Assembly: GCA_004296925.1 (NCBI GenBank)
Contig: SCVI01000039.1
Coordinates: 1 to 43,300, forward strand
Length of the DNA: 43,300 nt
Reading direction: 5' to 3'
DNA from: Patescibacteria group bacterium
GTDB lineage: Bacteria; Patescibacteriota; Minisyncoccia; Phycocordibacterales; Phycocordibacteraceae
This document shows, one piece after another, positions 1,001-40,910 of the stretch. Position numbers and translations under genes: made by a program. The notes beneath the pieces are model-generated. The model saw only the letters and a list, made by a program, of their open reading frames with translations. It had not been told where the DNA came from and ran no database searches. Position 1 is the first letter of the stretch. Every line of letters starts with the position of its first letter.

Positions 1001-2116
1001 ATGAATACAAACAATTCAGAAGATAAAAAGATAGACAATCTTTCGCCTGAACTCAAAAAGTTCATCGAGCCAGATAACAATCAAGTTGTTTCAGGAACTG
1101 TTTCTGACTACGTAAAAGCAAGCTCTTCCCCAGTAAGTGCCTATGCTGAACGCACCTTAAACCACACCAACGGTGGTGCGACGCTTCAAGCGGCACTCTG
1201 GCTAAAGGAGCATATCAAAAATGGCGGTAAGGTAGTGGTAACGCTCGCTGGTGCGCTCTCCTCTTTCCAGATTGGAATAATGCTCGCAGAATTAATTCGT
1301 CAAAACAAAGTGCATTTGGTTTCTGCAACGGGAGCAAACCACGAAGAATCGTACTACCGCTACGTTGCTCACTCCCATTACGCATACATCCCTCGCTACA
1401 CCGAACTAACTCCTGAACAAGAAGCAGAACTAAGAGACGCAGGACTACGCAGAATTACCGACACATTCCTTCCAGAAGATGAAAGTGTTCGAATTATGGA
1501 ACCGCACCTTTTGAAGATGTGGCATGAAGCGGAAGAAAAAGGAGAAAGTCACTACCCACACGAATATTTCCGTAGACTCTTCGCGGAAAAACTTATTACA
1601 CCTGACTCAAAAGCTAACCCGGACGATTGCTGGACATACGCGGCATATGAAAAAAATATTCCTATCGTGATCCCTGGATTTGAAGACTCAACGATGGGCA
1701 ATATTTTTGCAAGCTACACCTACAAAGGTCCTCACAAAAAAGCAGGCGACCCTTCTGTTGATCCAAAGGTTATGAAGTCAGGCTTAGAGTACTTCCACCT
1801 TATGTACGACTGGTATATGAAGGAATCTAAAGACGCTCCCATTGCCTTCTTGCAGCTCGGTGGCGGTATTGCGGCTGACTTCCCTATTTGCGTCGTTCCT
1901 TCCATTAAGCACGACCTTGGCAACCACAACGTACGCGACTGGGCAGGCTTTATTGAAATAGGCTCATCCCCAATGTCTTACGGCTCATACTCAGGTGCCG
2001 GCGGAAAAGAAAAAATTACGTGGGACAAACTTTCAACCGACTCCTACTACAACATTATCCAAAGCGACGTGAACGTCGCCTTCCCTTGGATCGCTGCCAT
2101 CCTTTTGGATCTTTAA
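1001..2116 (+). CDS. Deoxyhypusine synthase-like / homospermidine synthase-like protein
   Basis: GGATLQAALWL, VVTLAGALSSFQIGIM, VSATGANHEESYYR, PIVIPGFEDSTMGN, FLQLGGGIAADFP. C-terminal EKITWDKL aligns with the lysine-bearing EAVSWGK motif of DHS. Confidence 0.85.
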   Translation: MNTNNSEDKKIDNLSPELKKFIEPDNNQVVSGTVSDYVKASSSPVSAYAERTLNHTNGGATLQAALWLKEHIKNGGKVVVTLAGALSSFQIGIMLAELIRQNKVHLVSATGANHEESYYRYVAHSHYAYIPRYTELTPEQEAELRDAGLRRITDTFLPEDESVRIMEPHLLKMWHEAEEKGESHYPHEYFRRLFAEKLITPDSKANPDDCWTYAAYEKNIPIVIPGFEDSTMGNIFASYTYKGPHKKAGDPSVDPKVMKSGLEYFHLMYDWYMKESKDAPIAFLQLGGGIAADFPICVVPSIKHDLGNHNVRDWAGFIEIGSSPMSYGSYSGAGGKEKITWDKLSTDSYYNIIQSDVNVAFPWIAAILLDL

Positions 2117-4332: not shown

Positions 4333-4434
4333 TGGCTGCAGGGGAAGGAATCGAACCCTCATTGGCCCTTTTCAGAAGACTCTTAAATTAAAGTCCTCTG
4401 AGAAGGGGCTGTTCTGCCATTAAACTAACCCGCA
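4333..4434 (-). tRNA. tRNA or tRNA-like gene with an abnormally long central (anticodon-region) hairpin; isotype unassigned
   Basis: Minus strand TGCGGGT-TA-GTTTAATGGCAGAAC-A-[45 nt hairpin]-CAAT-GAGGGTTCGATTCCTTC-CCCTGCA-G-CCA. D-arm, T-arm, encoded CCA, U1:A72 and G73 are recognisable. The anticodon arm is a ~17-bp hairpin. Confidence 0.7.
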
Positions 4435-7238: not shown

Positions 7239-7476
7239 GTAATTTCATACTACACTTCTCAACTCGCATGTCAAAAAACCTCTTTTTTGAAGAGTATTTT
7301 CACAAAAACCAAAGTCATTAAGTAGCTCCTTTTCTTCTGTCCCGTTTACCCCGTTTACGACTTCGCTTTTGTAGCGAACGGCTGCCGTGCGTTATTTTGG
7401 GACTATACGCAATGGTCCGTTCTCACTTGAACATCGACCGGATAAGTTTCGATACGAGATCGAAACGGTTTCCGCA

Positions 7477-8936
7477 TGGAATTGTTCCACGACCAGCTTC
7501 CGCTAGCCGTGCCTTGTTACAACTTACTCCCTGTCACCGAACTTGCCGTGGGTCGCGATAAACGCGAACGTCGGGCATTCCCGGCTCCCTTGAGTTGATG
7601 GGCGGTGAGTACAAAACTCGAGAACGTATTCACCGTAGTATGGCTGACCTACGATTACTAGCGATTCCAGCTTCAAGAGGTCGAGTTGCAGACCTCTATC
7701 CGTACTGAGGACGCGTTTTGGGATTTGCTCCACCTTACGGTATTGCTTCCTTTTGTCGCGCCCATTGTATCACGTGTGCAGCCCAAGACATCAGAGGGAC
7801 ATGCTGATCTGGCGTCATCCCCACCTTCCTCTCCCGTGAGGGAGCAGTCTCGCCTGACATTTAAAACAGACAACGGGGGTTGCGTTCGTTTACCCACTTA
7901 AGGGAACAGCTCAAGCCACGAACTGACGACGACCATGCATCACCTGCTATACACCCTCGAAGGCTGACTTCCTTTCGGAAGCCGTGCAGTATAGTTTCTA
8001 GTCTTGGTAAGGTTCTTCGCTTACCTACGAATTAAGCCACATGATCCACCGCTTGTGCGAGTTCCCGTCTATTCCTTTGAGTTTTAGTCTTGCGACCGTA
8101 CTACCCAGGCGGTTCCCTTAACGCGTTAGCTTCGCCACGAAGAGGGTCGATACTCCTCATAGCCAGGGAACATAGTTTAGGGCGTGGACTACAAGGGTAT
8201 CTAATCCTTTTCGCTACCCACGCTTTCGTGCCTCAGTGTCAGGAATGTCCCAGTACGCTGCCTTCGCATTCGGTGTTCCCCATGATATCAACGGATTTCA
8301 CCCCTACACCATGAGTTCCACGTACCTCTTACATCCTCTAGCGTTACCGTTTCCCCTCGAGCCTTCGGGTTGAGCCCGAAGGATTTAAAAGAGGACTAAT
8401 AACACCACCTACGCACCCTTTACGCCCAGTAATTCCGGATAATGCTTGGGGCCTCTGTATTACCGCTCCTGCTGGCACAGAGTTAGGAGCCCCTTATTCA
8501 TGAGGTACTGTCAAAACTTCATCCCTCATAAAAGATGTTTACGCCCCGAAGGACTTCATCCACCACGCGGCGTCGCTCCGTCAGACTTTCGTCCATTGCG
8601 GAAGATTCTCGACTGCGGCCTCCCGTAGGAGTAAGGACCGTATCTCAGTTCCATCGGTGGGGGTCAGCCTCTCAGCTCCCCTAAACGTCATAGCCTTGGT
8701 GAGCCATTACCTCACCAACTAGCTGATATTACGCAGGCTCCTCCTAGAGCGGATTGCTCCTTTACACCTTAGTGACCATCGGGAATTGCGCCATCTTTCG
8801 ATGGAATATGCCCGACTCTAGGGTAGATTCCTACGCGTTACTACCTCGTCTGCCGTGGGTCTAAACCCACTCGACTTGCATGCCTTATCCACGCCGCCAG
8901 CATTCATCCTGAGCTAGGATCAAACTCTAAGTAAGA
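7477..8936 (-). rRNA. rrs: 16S ribosomal RNA
   Basis: 5' end AGAGTTTGATCCTAGCTCAGGATGAATGCTGGCGGCG, 806-region ATTAGATACCCTTGTAGTCC, 3' region CACCGCCCATCAACTC...AAGTTGTAACAAGG, h45 with GGAA tetraloop. Ends approximate. Confidence 0.97.
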
Positions 8937-12975: not shown

Positions 12976-13947
12976 CTATAGGTATTTTGCTTTAAGTGCC
13001 ACTAAGTTTGCAAAAATTTCAGTAACCGCGATAGGTCCAACCCCTCCTGGAACCGGAGTGAAAACGCTGGCTTTCTCAGCACACAGCGGATCCGCATCCC
13101 CAACCACTATCCCACCAGACTCGCTCGTACCACCATCAATGATAACTACTCCCTCTTTGACCATATCGGGCTTAATAAGCGCAGGAGCCCCTGCTCCAGA
13201 AATAATAATGTCGGCATTTTTTGTGGCCTCAGCTACATTGTCTCCCTTTACTAATACGGTAACGTTCGCGCCGAGTCTTTTAAACAAAATATTTGCAGGC
13301 CTCCCTACTAACCTACCTCCTCCAATAAGAACTACGTTTGCGCCTTCTACAGTTACATTATTTCGTTTAAGTATGTACCACATTGCGGCAGGTACTGGAG
13401 GGATTGCGGGAAATTCATTAGAGCTCGTCTGAAAATCCCGTCCTGTCTGTGATGCTAATTCCTGGGCTACGGGACGCTCGTCTCGTCCTCGCTGTACTTC
13501 CAGTACACCTCGAACTCCGACTCGATCCCTCGCCTCAGGAGATTCGCCTCTCGGCTCGGACACCCCGTTTTTCAGACGAGCTCCCACAAAAAGTTTGAAC
13601 GCCTCGTCGCTCAATACATCAACATCAAGGTGTGCGGGAATGGCGTTCTTTGCAACATCAACATCAATACCCGGAGGGAGCGGTAACTGCAAAATCACTC
13701 CATCATGAACAGATGCTTTTTTTACTGCATCAACAACATCGTCAAGAGTTGCATCGTCTGATACGTGGTATTCAACAACATCAATATCGAGAGCTCGTGC
13801 AGCGCGCTTCTTTATACCAACGTATGATTGCGTCACAGGACTCGTGGTTGCAATAACTACACCAAGCGAAAGTGCGCCGAAGCGCACACGACTCTCCCGA
13901 ATTTCTTCTGTTCGCTCAGAAGCGAGTCTCCTTCCATCTACTATCAT
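12976..13947 (-). CDS. folD: Bifunctional methylenetetrahydrofolate dehydrogenase/cyclohydrolase FolD, with an internal in-frame insertion
   Basis: SYVGIKKRAA, GVILQLPLP, LDVDVLSDEAF, GGGRLVGRPANILF, TPVPGGVGPIAVTEIFANLV. About 55 extra residues (GARLKNGVSEPRGE...FQTSS) interrupt the family core. Confidence 0.92.
   Translation of the reverse strand: MIVDGRRLASERTEEIRESRVRFGALSLGVVIATTSPVTQSYVGIKKRAARALDIDVVEYHVSDDATLDDVVDAVKKASVHDGVILQLPLPPGIDVDVAKNAIPAHLDVDVLSDEAFKLFVGARLKNGVSEPRGESPEARDRVGVRGVLEVQRGRDERPVAQELASQTGRDFQTSSNEFPAIPPVPAAMWYILKRNNVTVEGANVVLIGGGRLVGRPANILFKRLGANVTVLVKGDNVAEATKNADIIISGAGAPALIKPDMVKEGVVIIDGGTSESGGIVVGDADPLCAEKASVFTPVPGGVGPIAVTEIFANLVALKAKYL
13421..13583. repeat. 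Palindrome-bounded GC-rich insertion element inside folD
   Basis: 15-bp perfect terminal inverted repeats GAGCTCGTCTGAAAA (13421-13435) / TTTTCAGACGAGCTC (13569-13583); internal palindrome TGTACT-TCC-AGTACA. Confidence 0.8.
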
Positions 13948-14004
13948 GTCTAGAACATATCATAGACTTGAAGCAATCGCATAGTCACTCACCCTCTGGA
14001 TCTG

Positions 14005-19629: not shown

Positions 19630-20370
19630 CTACTCTTGTATGCGTGCAACAATTTCCGTGCGTACCACTGGACGACTAAAAACATCTTGCCAAGTAAATA
19701 CCACCGTTTCTTTTACGCGCCCCTGCATCCTCTCTATCTTTGTCTGCGACGCAGTAATTAAAATATCGTTCACATCATAAAGAAGCGATGTTAAAACCAC
19801 TGGACCCACAGGTGACGCGAGCGTATTTTCAATATCAGCTTTAAGTATTAATGCCTGCTGATCTAACTCCCTCGATACGATAGCTACAGGAGTTGAAACT
19901 CTATCCATCGTCGTCCACGTTGCTTGACCAAACACTATGAATGTCCGAGTAGGATTACGCTCCCCAGTAACAATATTTGGTTCAAACACAGGCACTGTTT
20001 CCCCTGGCTTTAAAAATGTAACTCCACGCCTTTCTGCGATTAAAATATTCTTTTCATCGAACAATTGGAATGTGTACGGAAGAGCTTGTGTACCTGCTCC
20101 ACTTTCTGGATTTCTTATCATCGCAACCGCGTGATACACACCTGGTGCAACTTGCACGGAGCGTGCCCATTGTGCCGAGATTCGCGGTGCCTCGCACACA
20201 AGGTTACACGACCCATCGCAATCAATACCTTGCTCATCTTGGTTTTTAATACCGTCAAAACATGTTGGTGGATGATAAAAAAAGAAATACCATACTCCTC
20301 CTAACACCAAAAGGACTATCAATAAAAAAGAGAGCGCAAAGAAAAGTTGGCGTTTGAATGACCACTGCAT
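19630..20370 (-). CDS. Single-pass membrane protein with Cys-rich extracytoplasmic motif
   Basis: N-terminal TM, then PTCFDGIKNQDEQGIDCDGSCNLVC. Confidence 0.7.
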   Translation of the reverse strand: MQWSFKRQLFFALSFLLIVLLVLGGVWYFFFYHPPTCFDGIKNQDEQGIDCDGSCNLVCEAPRISAQWARSVQVAPGVYHAVAMIRNPESGAGTQALPYTFQLFDEKNILIAERRGVTFLKPGETVPVFEPNIVTGERNPTRTFIVFGQATWTTMDRVSTPVAIVSRELDQQALILKADIENTLASPVGPVVLTSLLYDVNDILITASQTKIERMQGRVKETVVFTWQDVFSRPVVRTEIVARIQE

Positions 20371-20422
20371 ATGACAAGTATAACAAAATAATACCCTCGA
20401 CTGGCGTGGTTAATATTCTTTA

Positions 20423-20637: not shown

Positions 20638-20748
20638 CTGTTCTGGCGACTAGCTACTCTCCCCTTTCGAGTACCATCGCCACAATTGCGCTTAACTTCC
20701 GAGTTCGGAATGGGATCGGGTGTGACCACAACGTCAAGTCACCAGAAC
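20638..20748 (-). rRNA. rrf: 5S ribosomal RNA
   Basis: Minus strand TCTGGTGACTTGACGTTGTGGTCACACCCGATCCCATTCCGAACTCGGAAGTTAAGCGCAATTGTGGCGATGGTACTCGAAAGGGGAGAGTAGCTAGTCGCCAGA. Confidence 0.93.
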
Positions 20749-20961
20749 ACAAAATTCGATACACACTACACAATGTTGTGTAGTACTACCTATCATCATA
20801 AAGAGAACACCGAGCACAAATAGAGCTTGTTATGGATTTCCACGCTTCCCCGCAGAATGGACGAATTAGTACTTCTCAGCTCAATGCATTGCTGCATGTA
20901 CACTTAAAGCCTATCAACGTGATCATCTCTCACGAGTCTCAACGATACCTAATCTTGGAGG

Positions 20962-21000
<39 letters not shown>

Positions 21001-21290
21001 CGACATAGCTACTCTGCAATGCTCCTGGCGGAACAACAGATAGACCAGAGGTCAGTTCATCCCGGTCCTCTCGTACTAAGGACGACTCTCCTCAAGTATC
21101 AACGCTCATAGTAGATAGGAGACCAACCTGTCTCACGCACTTCGTTTCGTGTGTGTTAGAAACACACACGAGCGTTCCTTACGGAACCCCAAATTACTTT
21201 GGGAGTCGGACTGTAACTTCATCCTTCAATTTTTTTACAAAAATTGTGTTGGATGATCAACATTCAGTCTCTCGAGGCTAAGCAGCTCTG

Positions 21291-21356
21291 AGTACTGAGT
21301 TCCAAGTCTAGAGTTAAAAACTCTGGACTCAAAACTAGAAACTCTGAACTAACTCA
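21291..21356. repeat. Heptad-periodic palindromic element B (inside intron, P6 region)
   Basis: GAGTACT GAGTTCC AAGTCTA GAGTTAA AAACTCT GGACTCA AAACTAG AAACTCT GAACTAA. Confidence 0.75.
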
Positions 21357-21570
21357 TTCCTTCGATATTGTCCTACCAAAGTAGGATTTCATCGATATTA
21401 GTTGATTTCTTCACCCACATTCCTATAGGTGACCGCCGTGATTATGATTGACTCTTCTCACCCGACCAGTAATCGGGCTTCGATTTAAAAATCGAATATT
21501 ATATTTCTAAGACGAAAAAACTTTCAATAACTCTCTCTATGGGGTTCAGACTGTGAAATTGTCCAGAGTA

Positions 21571-21627
21571 TTGAGTTCAGAGTCTAGAGTTTTAAAACTC
21601 AGAACTAGGAACTCGCAACTATGAACT
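21571..21627. repeat. Heptad-periodic palindromic element C (inside intron, P1/P2 region)
   Basis: TGAGTTC AGAGTCT AGAGTTT TAAAACT CAGAACT AGGAACT CGCAACT ATGAACT. Confidence 0.75.
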
Positions 21628-21632
21628 GCTTC

Positions 21633-21664
<32 letters not shown>

Positions 21665-24006
21665 ATGGCGAACAGCCATACCCTTGGAACCTTCTCCAGC
21701 TCCGGGATGTGGTGAGCCGACATCGAGGTGCCGAACTGCGCCGTCGCTATGGACGCTTAGGCGCAACTAGCCTGTTATCCCCAGAGTAACTTTTATCCGT
21801 TGGGCTTCCCCTGCATCTAATGCATAAGGTCGGATCACTATGCTCCACTTTCGTGTCTGCTCGATATGTACATCTCACAGTTAAGCCAGCTTGTGCCATT
21901 ACACGACCGGCACGGTTTCCATTCGCGCCTAGCTGACCTTTGTAGGCTCCTCCGTTACTTTTTGGGAGGAGAGCGCCCCACTCAAACTGCCTGCCACGCA
22001 CTGTCTCCCAGGTGTTTATCCTGAGGTTAGAAATTGCAACACATAAGAACGGTATTTCACTGGCGAGTCCACAACAACCGAAACCGTTGCTTCAACCTCT
22101 CCCGTCTATGCTACGCATATGCGTCACAATCCCAATACGAAGCTACAGTAAAGCTTCTGGGGTCTTTTCGTCTAACTATGAGTAACCGGCATCTTCACCG
22201 GTACTGTATTTTCACCGAGCAAGTCCTCGAGACAGTTTCCAACTCGTTACACCATTCGTGCACGTCTGAACTTACCAGACAAGGAATTACGCTACCTTAG
22301 GACGATTATAGTTATCGCCGACATTGACCAGGGCTTATAAAGACCAGCACATAGTATTGCTACCATGCACCATCCTTAGTTGACCTTCTGGCATTGGTCA
22401 GGTGTCACCCCCTATACATCCTCTTGCGAGTTCGCAGGGAGCTGTGTTTTTGGTAAACAGTCGATTGGAAATCTTTCGCTGCGGCCCCCTAAATTAATAG
22501 GAGGCAGGCCTTATCCCGAAGTTACGGCCGCTGTTTTGCCGAGTTCCTTGAGGACCTCTCACTCGTTCGCCTTAGTCTACTCGACCAGACCACCTGTGTC
22601 GGTTTGCGGTACGGGCTCACACCAACTGAAGCTTAGAAGATTTTCTTGGAAGCGCGCTCCATGCCATTTACGCTGACGAATCAGCGCATTTCCGCTCCGC
22701 TTGGATAGCCTACATCAAAGTAGTTTCTTCCGGATTTTCCTAGAAGATATCCTCACGGCACGAACACACATCCAGTTGTGTGCGGCATGTACAGCCCTCC
22801 GTCTCTCCATCGCATTGGTGCGAGGCCAGGGAATATTAACCCTGTGTCCATCGCGTTCGGCTTTCGCCATTTGCTTAGGCCCGGCTAACCCTTGGTTGAT
22901 TATCAGTGCCAAGGAAACCTCGGTCTTTCGGCGTACGGGGTTCTCACCCGTATTGTGGTTACTTGTGCCGGCATTCTCACTTCCAAACGCTCCAGAATGG
23001 GTCACCCCTTATCCTTCATCGCGGTTTGGAACGCTCTCCTACCGATCATTTTTGTCGAAACAAAAATAATCCCTCAGTTTCGGTACCGTGCTTAGCCCCG
23101 ATTATCTTCGGCGCAGAAATTCTCGGTGAGTGAGCTGTTACGCTTTCTTTAAATGGTGGCTGCTTCTAAGCCAACATCCTCACTGTTTCAGAATTTCCAC
23201 TTCCTTATGATGCACTCAGCGCGGATTTAGGGACCTTAACTTGAGATCTAGGCTCTTCCCTTCTCGACGTATGGAGCTTAGCCCCCATCGTCTAACTGCC
23301 TGATTCTAGCTCTCTGGTATTCGGAGTTTGATAGGGTTAACGAGATTGCTCCCTGTTTAACCCTTCCAGTGCTCTACCCCCAGGAGGAACATCAGACGCC
23401 AGCCCAAAAGCTGTTTCGGAGAGAACCAGCTATTACCAGGTTCGATAAGCTTTTCACTCCTTACCACAAGTCATCCCAAGACGTTGTACGATCTACGGGT
23501 TCGGGCCTCCCCTTTTCTTTCGAAAAGGTTCACCCTGCTCATGGCAAGCTCACCTGGCTTCGGGTCTTACGTACGCGACTAAACGCGCTATTCACACTCG
23601 GTTTCCCTTCGGCTCCAACCTTACGGTCTTAGCCATGCCGTGTACGTAAACTCGCCGGCTCATTCTTCAATAGGCACGCCGTCGAGGTGCAAGCACCTCT
23701 TCGACTCCTTGTAGATGTGTGGTTTCAGAACTATTTCACTGTCCTTACCGGACTACTTTTCACCTTTCCCTCACGGTACTGGTTCACTATCGATCTCTGT
23801 AGATATTTAGCCTTGCCGGTTAGTGCCGGCAGATTCATCCAAGCTATTCATGTCTCGGATTACTCAAGAACGACAACAAGAAAGTGATTGGTCGTTTCGC
23901 ATACGGGACCGTTACCCTCTAGGGTTCTGCTTCCCAGCAGATTCTGCTACGACAATCATTGTTAACTTTCCTTCCATAAATGGAACGTCATCGCCTTACA
24001 ACCCCC

Positions 24007-24128
24007 ACGCATCACATGATGCACGATGCATCAGTTCTGAGTTCCTAGTTCTGAGTTGAGAGTTTTAAACTTCTCTGGACTCGGAACTCTGTACTCTGAA
24101 CTTCAGCATCACATTCCATGTGATGCGT
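24007..24128. repeat. 23S intervening sequence with heptad-periodic element A
   Basis: 12-bp perfect base stem ACGCATCACATG/CATGTGATGCGT enclosing AGTTCTG AGTTCCT AGTTCTG AGTTGAG AGTTTTA AACTTCT CTGGACT CGGAACT CTGTACT CTGAACT. Confidence 0.8.
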
Positions 24129-24177
24129 AGGTTTGGGCTTATCCCGTTTCGCTCGCCGCTACTCGGGGAATTCCAGA

Positions 24178-24219
24178 ATCCCGGTCTCTATGCAAATAAA
24201 TTCGCACAGAGACCGGGAT
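24178..24219. repeat. Second hairpin insertion in 23S domain I
   Basis: ATCCCGGTCTCTATGC-AAATAAATT-CGCACAGAGACCGGGAT between conserved CCAACAGGAT and ATTCCCCGAGTAGCGGCGAGCG blocks. Confidence 0.75.
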
Positions 24220-24847
24220 ATCCTGTTGGTCTCTTTTCCTCTAGGTACTGAGATGTTTCACTTCCCTAGGTGCACTTCTCGAACACGCGTTCGAGATATC
24301 TGTCGAAGACAGATAGGTTTCCCCATTCGGACATTTTCGGATCAAAGCTTGCTCGTCAGCTCCCCGAAACATTTCGTCGACTGCTACGTCCTTCATCGCT
24401 CTACAGAGTCAAGGCATCCACCACACACCCTTCAAACTTCCACGAGGAAGCTTGAAAACCACATAACGTTACGCTCATTTAATTTAACGAACGTCTCTAA
24501 ATTATGCTCGGTGTTCTCTTTATGATGTGTTGTCAACGAACAGGTTTCTAAGGGAATAAAAAAGGCCGCATTTCGCGGACCGCATACGGGAGCAGAAACT
24601 GCTACCTTTAGCGCCGCATTTCGCCTTTAGTATTAGTACTCATAAACCTTTGTGTAGAATACGCTCCGAGATGGATTATGTCAAGAAATATAAGGGTTCT
24701 GGGGCGATTGAGGGAGACCAAAAAGCGAAACGGCTTAAATAAAGGCGATTCTAGAAAGCATGTAAAATAACGCACCTTCTATCCCCAGCTTTTCCCCTCT
24801 TAGTCAGGGGTCAGATTTCAAATTTCAGGTACCGCATTTTGACACGT

Positions 24848-26003: not shown

Positions 26004-26570
26004 TTACTTTCGCCCAATAATAATTCTATGTGAGAACTCAAGAATGTCTCGGAGTAACCGATCTCTTGCTTCGAGTCTTTCTCGAAAGGCCTTTGTTTCT
26101 AAGACCGCGTAGCGAAGCGGTATCGCTGAAACGTGTTCAGCTTTTCTAATTGCCTGCGCAATACGAGGGTCGTGAGGACGACGCGCAACGATTAATAAGT
26201 CCACACTGCTTTGCGACTCATTTGCTAAAATTCCTGTAGCAATTACAAGAGTAAGTGCGGGTACACCAGTGAATGCTCGCGCGAGTGTTCTATCGTCAGG
26301 GAGTGTTGCTTCTCCTAAAAACCTTTTCAAAGAATCAGCAAGTGGGTGAGATTTGTTAAATGCATACGTCGTTGTCTTCCCACTTTTTCGGGCGTTTAAA
26401 ATACCAAGTCTTGCGAGTGTTGATGTCTCACGAGAAATCGTTACTTTCGATCCTCCGATAGTACTCGCAACGGTGGATGCCGGGGCGCGTTCATCAGTAT
26501 TGAAAGCAAAAAATTTCAGAACCTTGAGACGTGTGGAAGAAGAACAAAATCGGACGACGTCTGGAAACAT
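26004..26570 (-). CDS. Winged-helix/ArsR-like HTH protein with possible nucleotidyltransferase-like C-terminal domain
   Basis: STRLKVLKFFAFN...VASTIGGSKVTISRETSTLARLGILNARKSGKTTTYAFN, then a VDLLIVARRPHDPRIAQAIRKAE segment. Confidence 0.65.
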   Translation of the reverse strand: MFPDVVRFCSSSTRLKVLKFFAFNTDERAPASTVASTIGGSKVTISRETSTLARLGILNARKSGKTTTYAFNKSHPLADSLKRFLGEATLPDDRTLARAFTGVPALTLVIATGILANESQSSVDLLIVARRPHDPRIAQAIRKAEHVSAIPLRYAVLETKAFRERLEARDRLLRDILEFSHRIIIGRK

Positions 26571-26698
26571 TGGAGTATTGTACCTAGCTAAATGTTAAAA
26601 GTAAAAAAACTGATTCTTTGTGCTTTTTCGATGACTTTTCACGTAACTTTGCTTTTGACTTTATTCGTGATTCTGTTCGTAATTCTGTGAAATGTCTG

Positions 26699-29543: not shown

Positions 29544-30221
29544 TCACTCATCCGTTGCATTTCGTAAAAAATTGAGGAGTTCCTCTAGGTCATTTTGTTC
29601 TTTCATAAAATCTGGGGCTTGATTATAGGCAATCAACTGACGCCATTGGCGCTCACCGACCGAATAATCATAAAAACTTGAATACGGGTAGGTCGCTAAA
29701 AATTTGCGCACCGCGTCGGGATCCTCAATCCCTTTTTCTTCCCAAAGTGGTTCAATAAGAGAGACAGGATTTAAATGTACATATGAAAATATGTATCGAA
29801 AATAAGGGTTCGTACCAACATGACGACTCTTAAAACGTCCCTGAAACAAAACACCGCTATGGGCGTGCTTGGCATTGAAATACATAGTATAGGCAGTTAC
29901 GACCTTTCTCATGAAGCGCGTAATCCCTTGATCTTCTTCTTGCCTCAACACAAAGTGAAAATGGTTAGGCATAAGAGTCCACGCCATAATACTGACGAGT
30001 GGTTTGCCGCGTACTTCTAAATCCATAATATCTGCAAAGGTCCGACCTTTGTATCTGCTAAGTAGTGCGCGAGTATCTACCGGAGCAATACTGTTTGCGA
30101 GAAAAAGGATAAGAAGTAATCGTTCGTAATCTTTATTTGAACGAAAGATTAAGTTCTTGTGAGCGCCTCGATTGTAAACATGGTATGTTTCCCCGATTTC
30201 GAGAGGTTTATCTCGTATCAT
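29544..30221 (-). CDS. REP-associated tyrosine transposase (RAYT / IS200-like Y1_Tnp)
   Basis: GETYHVYNRGAHKNLIF, MAWTLMPNHFHFVLRQ (HUH), TAYTMYFNAKHAHSGVLFQGRFKS. Confidence 0.92.
   Translation of the reverse strand: MIRDKPLEIGETYHVYNRGAHKNLIFRSNKDYERLLLILFLANSIAPVDTRALLSRYKGRTFADIMDLEVRGKPLVSIMAWTLMPNHFHFVLRQEEDQGITRFMRKVVTAYTMYFNAKHAHSGVLFQGRFKSRHVGTNPYFRYIFSYVHLNPVSLIEPLWEEKGIEDPDAVRKFLATYPYSSFYDYSVGERQWRQLIAYNQAPDFMKEQNDLEELLNFLRNATDE
30034..30052. repeat. REP-like palindrome inside the RAYT coding sequence
   Basis: GCAAAGGTCCGACCTTTGT, encoding KGRTFAD. Confidence 0.8.
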
Positions 30222-30237
30222 CCAATAAGAATATCAC

Positions 30238-35429: not shown

Positions 35430-35673
35430 ATTTTATGGACGCCATGTCTCTAATTAAAGGTCATTGTATCTCTAAGACAAGCCCTATTGCAAGGAACATT
35501 CTTTAGGGTCTCTTGTAGCAGTTCTCTCCCAATAACCTGCACCACAGTAAATATGTGATGTTTTGAAAAGATGGATATGGCGGAACTTACACAATCAGAG
35601 AGTCTTTATTTTTTGATTTCAATTTCGCCTTTTGCACCAACATAGTTTTCTGCAAGCGTGTTAAAATCCACGA

Positions 35674-39259: not shown

Positions 39260-39583
39260 TTACTGTACTGAAAGTTGTGCGTTTTTGTGACGAAGTCCAT
39301 CCACCATACTCCAACCCACAATAAAGGTTGAGGCGATTGCGGTAAGTTGCACAGTCACTGTAGTGCTCAAAAATGCCACGACGCTGAAACGTACGAGCCC
39401 AAGAAGACCGTTTACTTGTAAAGCATTCTCGATAACGTTTGGGAGTGACACCGAGGAGATGAGTGCAAAAAGGAACACTAGAACAGCCGCAATACGTACA
39501 GGCATACTTGTGAGCTGTCTCGCTACATACATAACGTAGACCGAGCGCATGATTCTTTTTCGTAATTCTTGTTCTGATGCCAT
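39260..39583 (-). CDS. Small membrane protein downstream of the ECF sigma factor
   Basis: 107 aa, two or three TM segments; same strand and next to the sigma gene. Confidence 0.6.
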   Translation of the reverse strand: MASEQELRKRIMRSVYVMYVARQLTSMPVRIAAVLVFLFALISSVSLPNVIENALQVNGLLGLVRFSVVAFLSTTVTVQLTAIASTFIVGWSMVDGLRHKNAQLSVQ

Positions 39584-39600
39584 ATAAAAATACTATCCTA

Positions 39601-40334: not shown

Positions 40335-40910
40335 ATGTCAGTACTTTCATACAACGAAATAGTTCCTAAAAAAGTAATTGTCTACGAAGGACAACCATGC
40401 GAAGTACTTTCTTCGCATGTGTTTCGTAAACAACAACGAAAGCCAGTCAACCAAACAAAACTCCGTGGTCTTAAAACAGGTAAAGTGCTTGAAATATCTT
40501 TTCACCAAAACGAAACGGTACTCGAAGCCGATACGGAAAAACGACCTGCCAAATTTATCTACAAAAATAAAGGGGAAATTTGGTTCACTGACCCTGATGA
40601 TCCAAAAAATCGATTCCAGGTTGCAGAGGCGCTATTGAACGAAAAGGCAAAATATCTGAAACCAGACCTAGTTATTGATCTCTTATTTTGGAACGAAGAA
40701 ATTATTGACGCAGACTTCCCCATCAAAATGGAGTTTAAGGTAACGGAAGCTCCCCCATCAGTGAAAGGGGCAACTGCACAAGGTGGTAACAAGGTAGTAA
40801 CGATAGAGGGTGGCGCGACAATAAACGTACCTATGTTTATTAATGAGGGAGATATTGTTCGTATCAATACTGATACTGGAGAGTATACTGAGCGCGTAAG
40901 TAAATCATAA
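40335..40910 (+). CDS. efp: Elongation factor P with non-canonical tip loop
   Basis: KTGKVLEISFHQNETVLEAD...FTDPDD...INVPMFINEGDIVRINTDTGEYTERV; KOW-OB-OB architecture. Confidence 0.95.
   Translation: MSVLSYNEIVPKKVIVYEGQPCEVLSSHVFRKQQRKPVNQTKLRGLKTGKVLEISFHQNETVLEADTEKRPAKFIYKNKGEIWFTDPDDPKNRFQVAEALLNEKAKYLKPDLVIDLLFWNEEIIDADFPIKMEFKVTEAPPSVKGATAQGGNKVVTIEGGATINVPMFINEGDIVRINTDTGEYTERVSKS

Follow-up and report, generated by a model that had tools for sequence, protein, structure and literature searches.

Introduction

The anti-Shine-Dalgarno (anti-SD) sequence is among the most conserved sequences of bacteria, and its loss is known mainly from scattered symbionts and from Flavobacteriia. 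Actinobacteria and Deinococcus-Thermus keep CCUCC and use SD-led genes too, and the 5'-terminal AUG of leaderless mRNAs described elsewhere is engaged by codon-anticodon pairing. Loss of the anti-SD in bacteria has been reported previously (Lim et al. 2012, PMC3522020; Amin et al. 2018, PMC6107228), and a study from 2024 (PMC10783764) lists in its class iv one Campbellbacteria, one Wolfebacteria, one Peribacter and two SR1 genomes that are SD-scarce and without CCUCC. For leaderless genes, a TANNNT lying about 12 bp ahead of the start codon has served as a criterion in other bacteria (PMC3160421), and Deinococcus-Thermus has been reported to show an expression pattern in which a -10 element adjoins ORFs (PMC12340547). 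No paper that ties leaderless genes or SD use to the Patescibacteria as a group was found in a search of the main texts of openly accessible papers.

Here we analyzed a stretch of 43,300 nucleotides, referred to as the window, from a Patescibacteria group bacterium of the order Phycocordibacterales, class Minisyncoccia (GCA_004296925.1, contig SCVI01000039.1). As in the bacteria known to have lost the anti-SD (PMC3522020, PMC6107228, PMC10783764), the 16S rRNA lacks CCUCC and the genes are not preceded by SD-like motifs. However, the bacteria described previously belong mainly to the Flavobacteriia, the insect symbionts and the haemotropic mycoplasmas, whereas the absence described here covers a whole order and a large share of its class, has arisen repeatedly and is accompanied by a leaderless promoter signature. 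The signature resembles that of leaderless genes in Actinobacteria and Deinococcus-Thermus (PMC3160421, PMC12340547, PMC3898074), in which a -10 TANNNT about 12 bp before the start codon places the transcription start on the start codon, but here it is combined with a ribosome without CCUCC. Bacteroidia such as F. johnsoniae (PMC6847099, PMC9976891) likewise have A-rich start regions and no SD pairing of the mRNA, although their anti-SD is kept and hidden by bS21, bS18 and bS6; here it is gone (AUUCC), and unlike in this sequestration system, bS21-like genes are weak or undetected in many of the relatives. Three elements appear to be new: the absence of the anti-SD throughout the order, its multiple losses within the class, and the leaderless register.

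A variant 16S rRNA tail

The assembly that holds the window (G000; 787 kb in 129 contigs, 97.7% complete) contains only one match to 16S rRNA, which is full length (Table 1). The minus strand from 7520 to 7478, read directly as GTAACAAGGCACGGCTAGCGGAAGCTGGTCGTGGAACAATTCC, matches the tail sequence and the GGAA loop of helix 45 that were given in the original prediction. In E. coli numbering, helix 45 spans 1506-1529 (window 7511-7488) and retains the GGAA loop; it has 10 conserved pairs in a comparison of 20 relatives, and one pair varies between C-G, G-C and G-U. Helix 45 is followed by GGAACAAUUCC in place of the expected GGAUCACCUCC, with the substitutions C1535->A, C1536->U and U1532->A, and the anti-SD core at 1535-1539 is AUUCC, where CCUCC is canonical. 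Thus, the predicted lack of a canonical anti-SD in the 16S tail was confirmed in a single, complete gene. A mature 16S that includes a CCUCC elsewhere had been named as evidence that would speak against the prediction; neither CCTCC, ACCTC nor CTCCT is present within 400 bases downstream of the tail.

Table 1. Coordinates of the 16S rRNA features and the -10 elements in the window.
Feature	Position	Strand	Remark
16S rRNA gene	7475-8935	minus	Rfam RF00177, 1357.1 bits, model 1-1533; full length
Helix 45 of 16S, CACGGCUAGC-GGAA-GCUGGUCGUG	7488-7511	minus	Intact; direct reading
16S tail GAACAAUUCC	7478-7487	minus	Expected GAUCACCUCC; E. coli 1530-1539
Possible precursor hairpin UUCC-AUGC-GGAA	7470-7481	minus	Overlaps the variant tail
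Extended -10 TGTTAAAAT	35659-35667	plus	-15 to -7 of the ftsK start codon (35674); predicted leaderless transcript
-10-like TATGTT	13954-13959	minus	At -12 of folD (12976-13947)
-10-like TACAAT	26577-26582	minus	At -12 of ORF 26004-26570
-10-like TATACT	20377-20382	minus	At -12 of ORF 19630-20370
-10-like TATAGT	906-911	minus	At -12 of ORF 597-899
-10-like TAGTAT	39590-39595	minus	At -12 of ORF 39260-39583; start-call margin 2.3, moderately sure
-10-like TATTCT	30228-30233	minus	At -12 of IS200-like transposase ORF 29544-30221

The 16S gene differs from the common pattern at two other sites. The pair 1405-1496 in the decoding site is A-U as compared to the near-universal G-C (window 7599 and 7521, minus strand); this swap shows perfect covariation and is confined to the genus members G000, G002, G005 and G009, with G-C in the 37 other rows. 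The 530-loop pseudoknot 505-507/524-526 (window ~8450-8490, minus strand), which lies beneath the common 515F primer, is UCC/GGA rather than GGC/GCC in most of the order; it is UGC/GCA, UAC/GUA or GCC/GGC in other members of the class, with pairing mostly preserved. The rRNA genes are unlinked, with about 12 kb between 16S (7475-8935) and 23S-5S (20641-24444), and the 23S rRNA is 3596 nt long with several insertions.

Distribution of the tail among relatives

CCTCC was present in none of the 40 same-order tails that were read, which instead follow a loose GGANYAWWTY pattern. Relatives carrying CACCUCC, which had also been put forward as potential counter-evidence, were thus not encountered within the order, and since CCUCC is missing from all 40 genomes, the variant tail is not an assembly error. 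In a survey of the class, the helix-45 pattern was found in 255 of 387 genomes, about 96 of which have ACCTCC at the right place. Approximately 60% of the helix-45-positive genomes of the class are without the canonical motif, a figure that includes near-variants such as CTTCC and ATCTCC. Helix 45 was identified in 37 of the 41 genomes of the order, none of which has a canonical tail except for a foreign-looking second 16S in G011. In a sample of the phylum outside the class, CACCTCC is nearly universal, with few variants.

A 16S tree of 54 rows placed the order together with families f95 and f66 on one anti-SD-less side. At least three state changes are needed to explain the distribution on this tree, including two isolated losses, in families f119 and f113; the deep branches are uncertain because some rows are short. 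The nearest public relatives of the FtsK encoded in the window are found in Patescibacteria/Parcubacteria genomes, including REEB441, which corresponds by its 16S coordinates to G002 from the same genus, and Athens0714_16, which corresponds in this way to G142 from the same order. The 16S gene is single copy in most relatives. Fragments of 16S with a canonical anti-SD and a foreign helix 45 were observed on contigs G084:C57 (L001) and G011:C6, and these copies probably represent bin contamination.

A small hairpin over the tail is possible. A stem of at least 3 bp can be formed in 36 of 38 tails from the order and a stem of at least 4 bp in 21 of 38, versus a mean of 6.4 in shuffled tails. The covariation is weak, the hairpin is not called by RNAalifold, and single-sequence folding of the window tail favors a different pairing. 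A GTCGAT/GGCGAT box located about 40-50 nt past the tail (window 7433-7438, minus strand) is conserved in nearly all aligned members of the order.

No Shine-Dalgarno signal upstream of genes

Upstream regions were analyzed in G000 (about 206 kb), G006 from the same genus (400 kb) and G124 from the same order (400 kb), using gene starts called by codon usage alone, with no SD or promoter term; annotated starts were used for the E. coli K-12 control. SD tetramers were not enriched at positions -16 to -5 in any of the three genomes, and the first genes of operons in G000 displayed only 1 SD4 motif at -16 to -5 as compared to 8 at -40 to -29. Likewise, the duplex energy with ACCUCCUUUC showed no dip upstream of the starts in G000, G006 and G124. 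A duplex energy of -5 kcal/mol or lower was obtained for 76% of the starts in the E. coli control versus 2-11% in the three anti-SD-less genomes. In two relatives that carry the anti-SD, G411 and G260, the corresponding share was 9-17%, with a far-upstream background of 9-26%, and a clear SD signal was not found in either of them. The energies for the first genes in G411 are slightly below those of their own shuffles, and a small residual use of SD pairing is therefore possible in this genome.

Motifs that could pair with the variant tail were not enriched either: GGAAT, GAATT and AATTG at -16 to -5 numbered 2 for the first genes in G000 as compared to 1 farther upstream, and the duplex energies with the genome's own tail equaled the shuffled values in all three anti-SD-less genomes. 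The original prediction, based on start codons inspected by eye, was that SD motifs are lacking; this holds over the 206 kb of G000 and in G006 and G124, and the SD enrichment across a larger sequence that would have spoken against it was absent over the 206 kb. It had left the choice between SD-independent initiation and a changed SD code. The former agrees with the absence of SD enrichment and with the -10 elements in a leaderless register described below, whereas the latter finds no counterpart in GGAAT-type enrichment or own-tail energies.

Loss of bS1 was rejected as a cause, as bS1-like proteins were identified in 13 of the 13 genomes searched, including G000. Matches to bS21 were weak and obtained in 16 of 31 genomes. 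Genes for bS1-like proteins and IF3 are retained in relatives, so that leadered initiation is possible as well. IF3 (both domains) was undetected in G000 and in the near-complete G002, and is present in nearly all relatives searched.

A -10 element in leaderless register

The composition upstream of the start codons revealed T(-15) G(-14), T(-12) A(-11), T(-7) and a pyrimidine at -1, corresponding to an extended -10 promoter, TGnTAnnnT, upstream of the first genes of operons. An element in this register would place the first transcribed base at the A of the AUG. TANNNT was observed exactly at -12 in 17 of 60 first genes in G000 (about 2 expected, p ~1e-10), 24 of 111 in G006 (p ~1e-13) and 15 of 111 in G124 (p ~2e-4). 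The TGNTANNNT motif at -15 was found in 9/60, 11/111 and 8/111 first genes, respectively, with 0.1-0.3 expected, and the extended form in none of the operon-internal genes (0/21, 0/44 and 0/22). In E. coli, TANNNT at -12 was seen in 0 of 46 genes, and the leaderless signal was weak in the two anti-SD-bearing relatives (4/109 and 3/63). Within the window, the start region of ftsK, identified by Pfam, reads TGTTAAAAT-CCACGA-ATG.

The exact match at -12 is limited to about 14-28% of the first genes. An EM mixture model yielded TGnTATAAT and assigned about 58% of the first genes to hexamer registers -12 to -16, a figure that depends on the seeding of the model with a -10 consensus. Start regions are A-rich in all genomes, and the same procedure applied to operon-internal genes and to G411 produced A-rich motifs at -6 and no -10. 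The -10 register is preserved in some orthologues despite divergent flanks; co-occurrence of the exact -12 register among orthologues was little above expectation (2 versus 1.5), and ftsK orthologues of more distant genomes lack the exact -12 match. Taken together, the upstream sequences suggest that first-of-operon genes are probably mostly leaderless or near-leaderless. The "AT-rich leaders" of the original prediction are AT-rich, but a large part of this sequence probably represents the -10 promoter and not a transcribed leader.

A model for initiation and its alternatives

We consider it likely that initiation in these bacteria is SD-independent and largely leaderless, and that an unused anti-SD was subsequently lost. 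Ribosomes without an anti-SD are a property of the whole order. The extended -10 would direct RNA polymerase to begin most first-gene transcripts at the A of the AUG or a few bases ahead of it, and the ribosome would engage the 5'-terminal AUG via codon-anticodon pairing. For operon-internal genes, initiation would probably be coupled to the preceding gene or occur at sites that are A-rich and unstructured. Once SD pairing had fallen out of use, 16S positions 1535-1539 may have come under weaker selection, allowing CCUCC to decay a first time no later than in an ancestor of the order, and again in other families of the class. The two relatives that keep the anti-SD without clear SD use, G411 and G260, suggest that SD use faded before the anti-SD was lost. 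Only tentatively do we extend this to a large clade, comprising the whole order and much of the class, that abandoned mRNA-rRNA pairing, with leaderless initiation as the default for first genes, fading of SD use before the anti-SD decayed, and a tail retained for some other function, for example in 16S 3'-end processing.

An alternative is that initiation is mainly leadered but SD-independent, as in Bacteroidia, with A-rich, Kozak-like, unstructured starts, and that the near-start -10 elements serve a minority of genes. The A-rich start regions in all genomes, the A-rich -6 motifs at operon-internal genes and in G411, and the modest share of exact -12 matches are in line with this alternative. 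However, we find it rather unlikely given that the order shows a sharp -10 register specific to first genes, and that near registers raise the share to about 58%. About equally doubtful is a repurposing of the tail, in which the AU-rich pattern and a possible hairpin would act in 16S 3'-end processing or quality control, a role that is compatible with leaderless initiation. The conserved GGANYAWWTY pattern, stems that are more common than in shuffled tails, and the CTCC...GGAG often carried at the same place by canonical relatives point in this direction, but the difference between own and swapped stems is small (3.55 versus 3.32, sd 0.09), RNAalifold calls only helix 45, and the minimum-energy fold of the window tail is a different one.

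A changed SD/anti-SD code, with mRNA motifs complementary to the new tail (GGAAUUG-like), is highly improbable. The tail does retain UCC and its pattern is conserved at the level of the order, unlike the outcome of random drift, yet the region from -16 to -5 shows no enrichment of the matching motifs, and own-tail duplex energies equal those of shuffles in three genomes. Still less credible is that the tail reflects an error in sequencing or assembly, or that the gene is a 16S pseudogene and a canonical copy lies at another site in the genome. With 129 contigs in the assembly, a copy could have been missed, but the 16S gene is full length (1357 bits), the same or similar tails occur in independent genomes, 16S is single copy in most relatives, and the few canonical copies in the family are located on contigs with a foreign helix 45; with no CCTCC in the 40 same-order tails, an error or hidden canonical copy was rejected. 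A diverse order without the anti-SD beside relatives that keep it without clear SD use provides a natural series for studying how SD initiation is lost and in which order the steps occur. Start codons in these genomes may be misplaced by gene finders whose scoring includes SD motifs.

Other features of the window

A tRNA-like gene at 4333-4434 on the minus strand (Rfam, 32.7 bits) has an anticodon arm enlarged by a self-complementary insertion of about 30 nt; it was missed by ARAGORN and has at most partial matches in close relatives. A gene of the deoxyhypusine synthase family is present alongside the gene for EF-P in the same genome (window 1001-2116 and 40335-40910).
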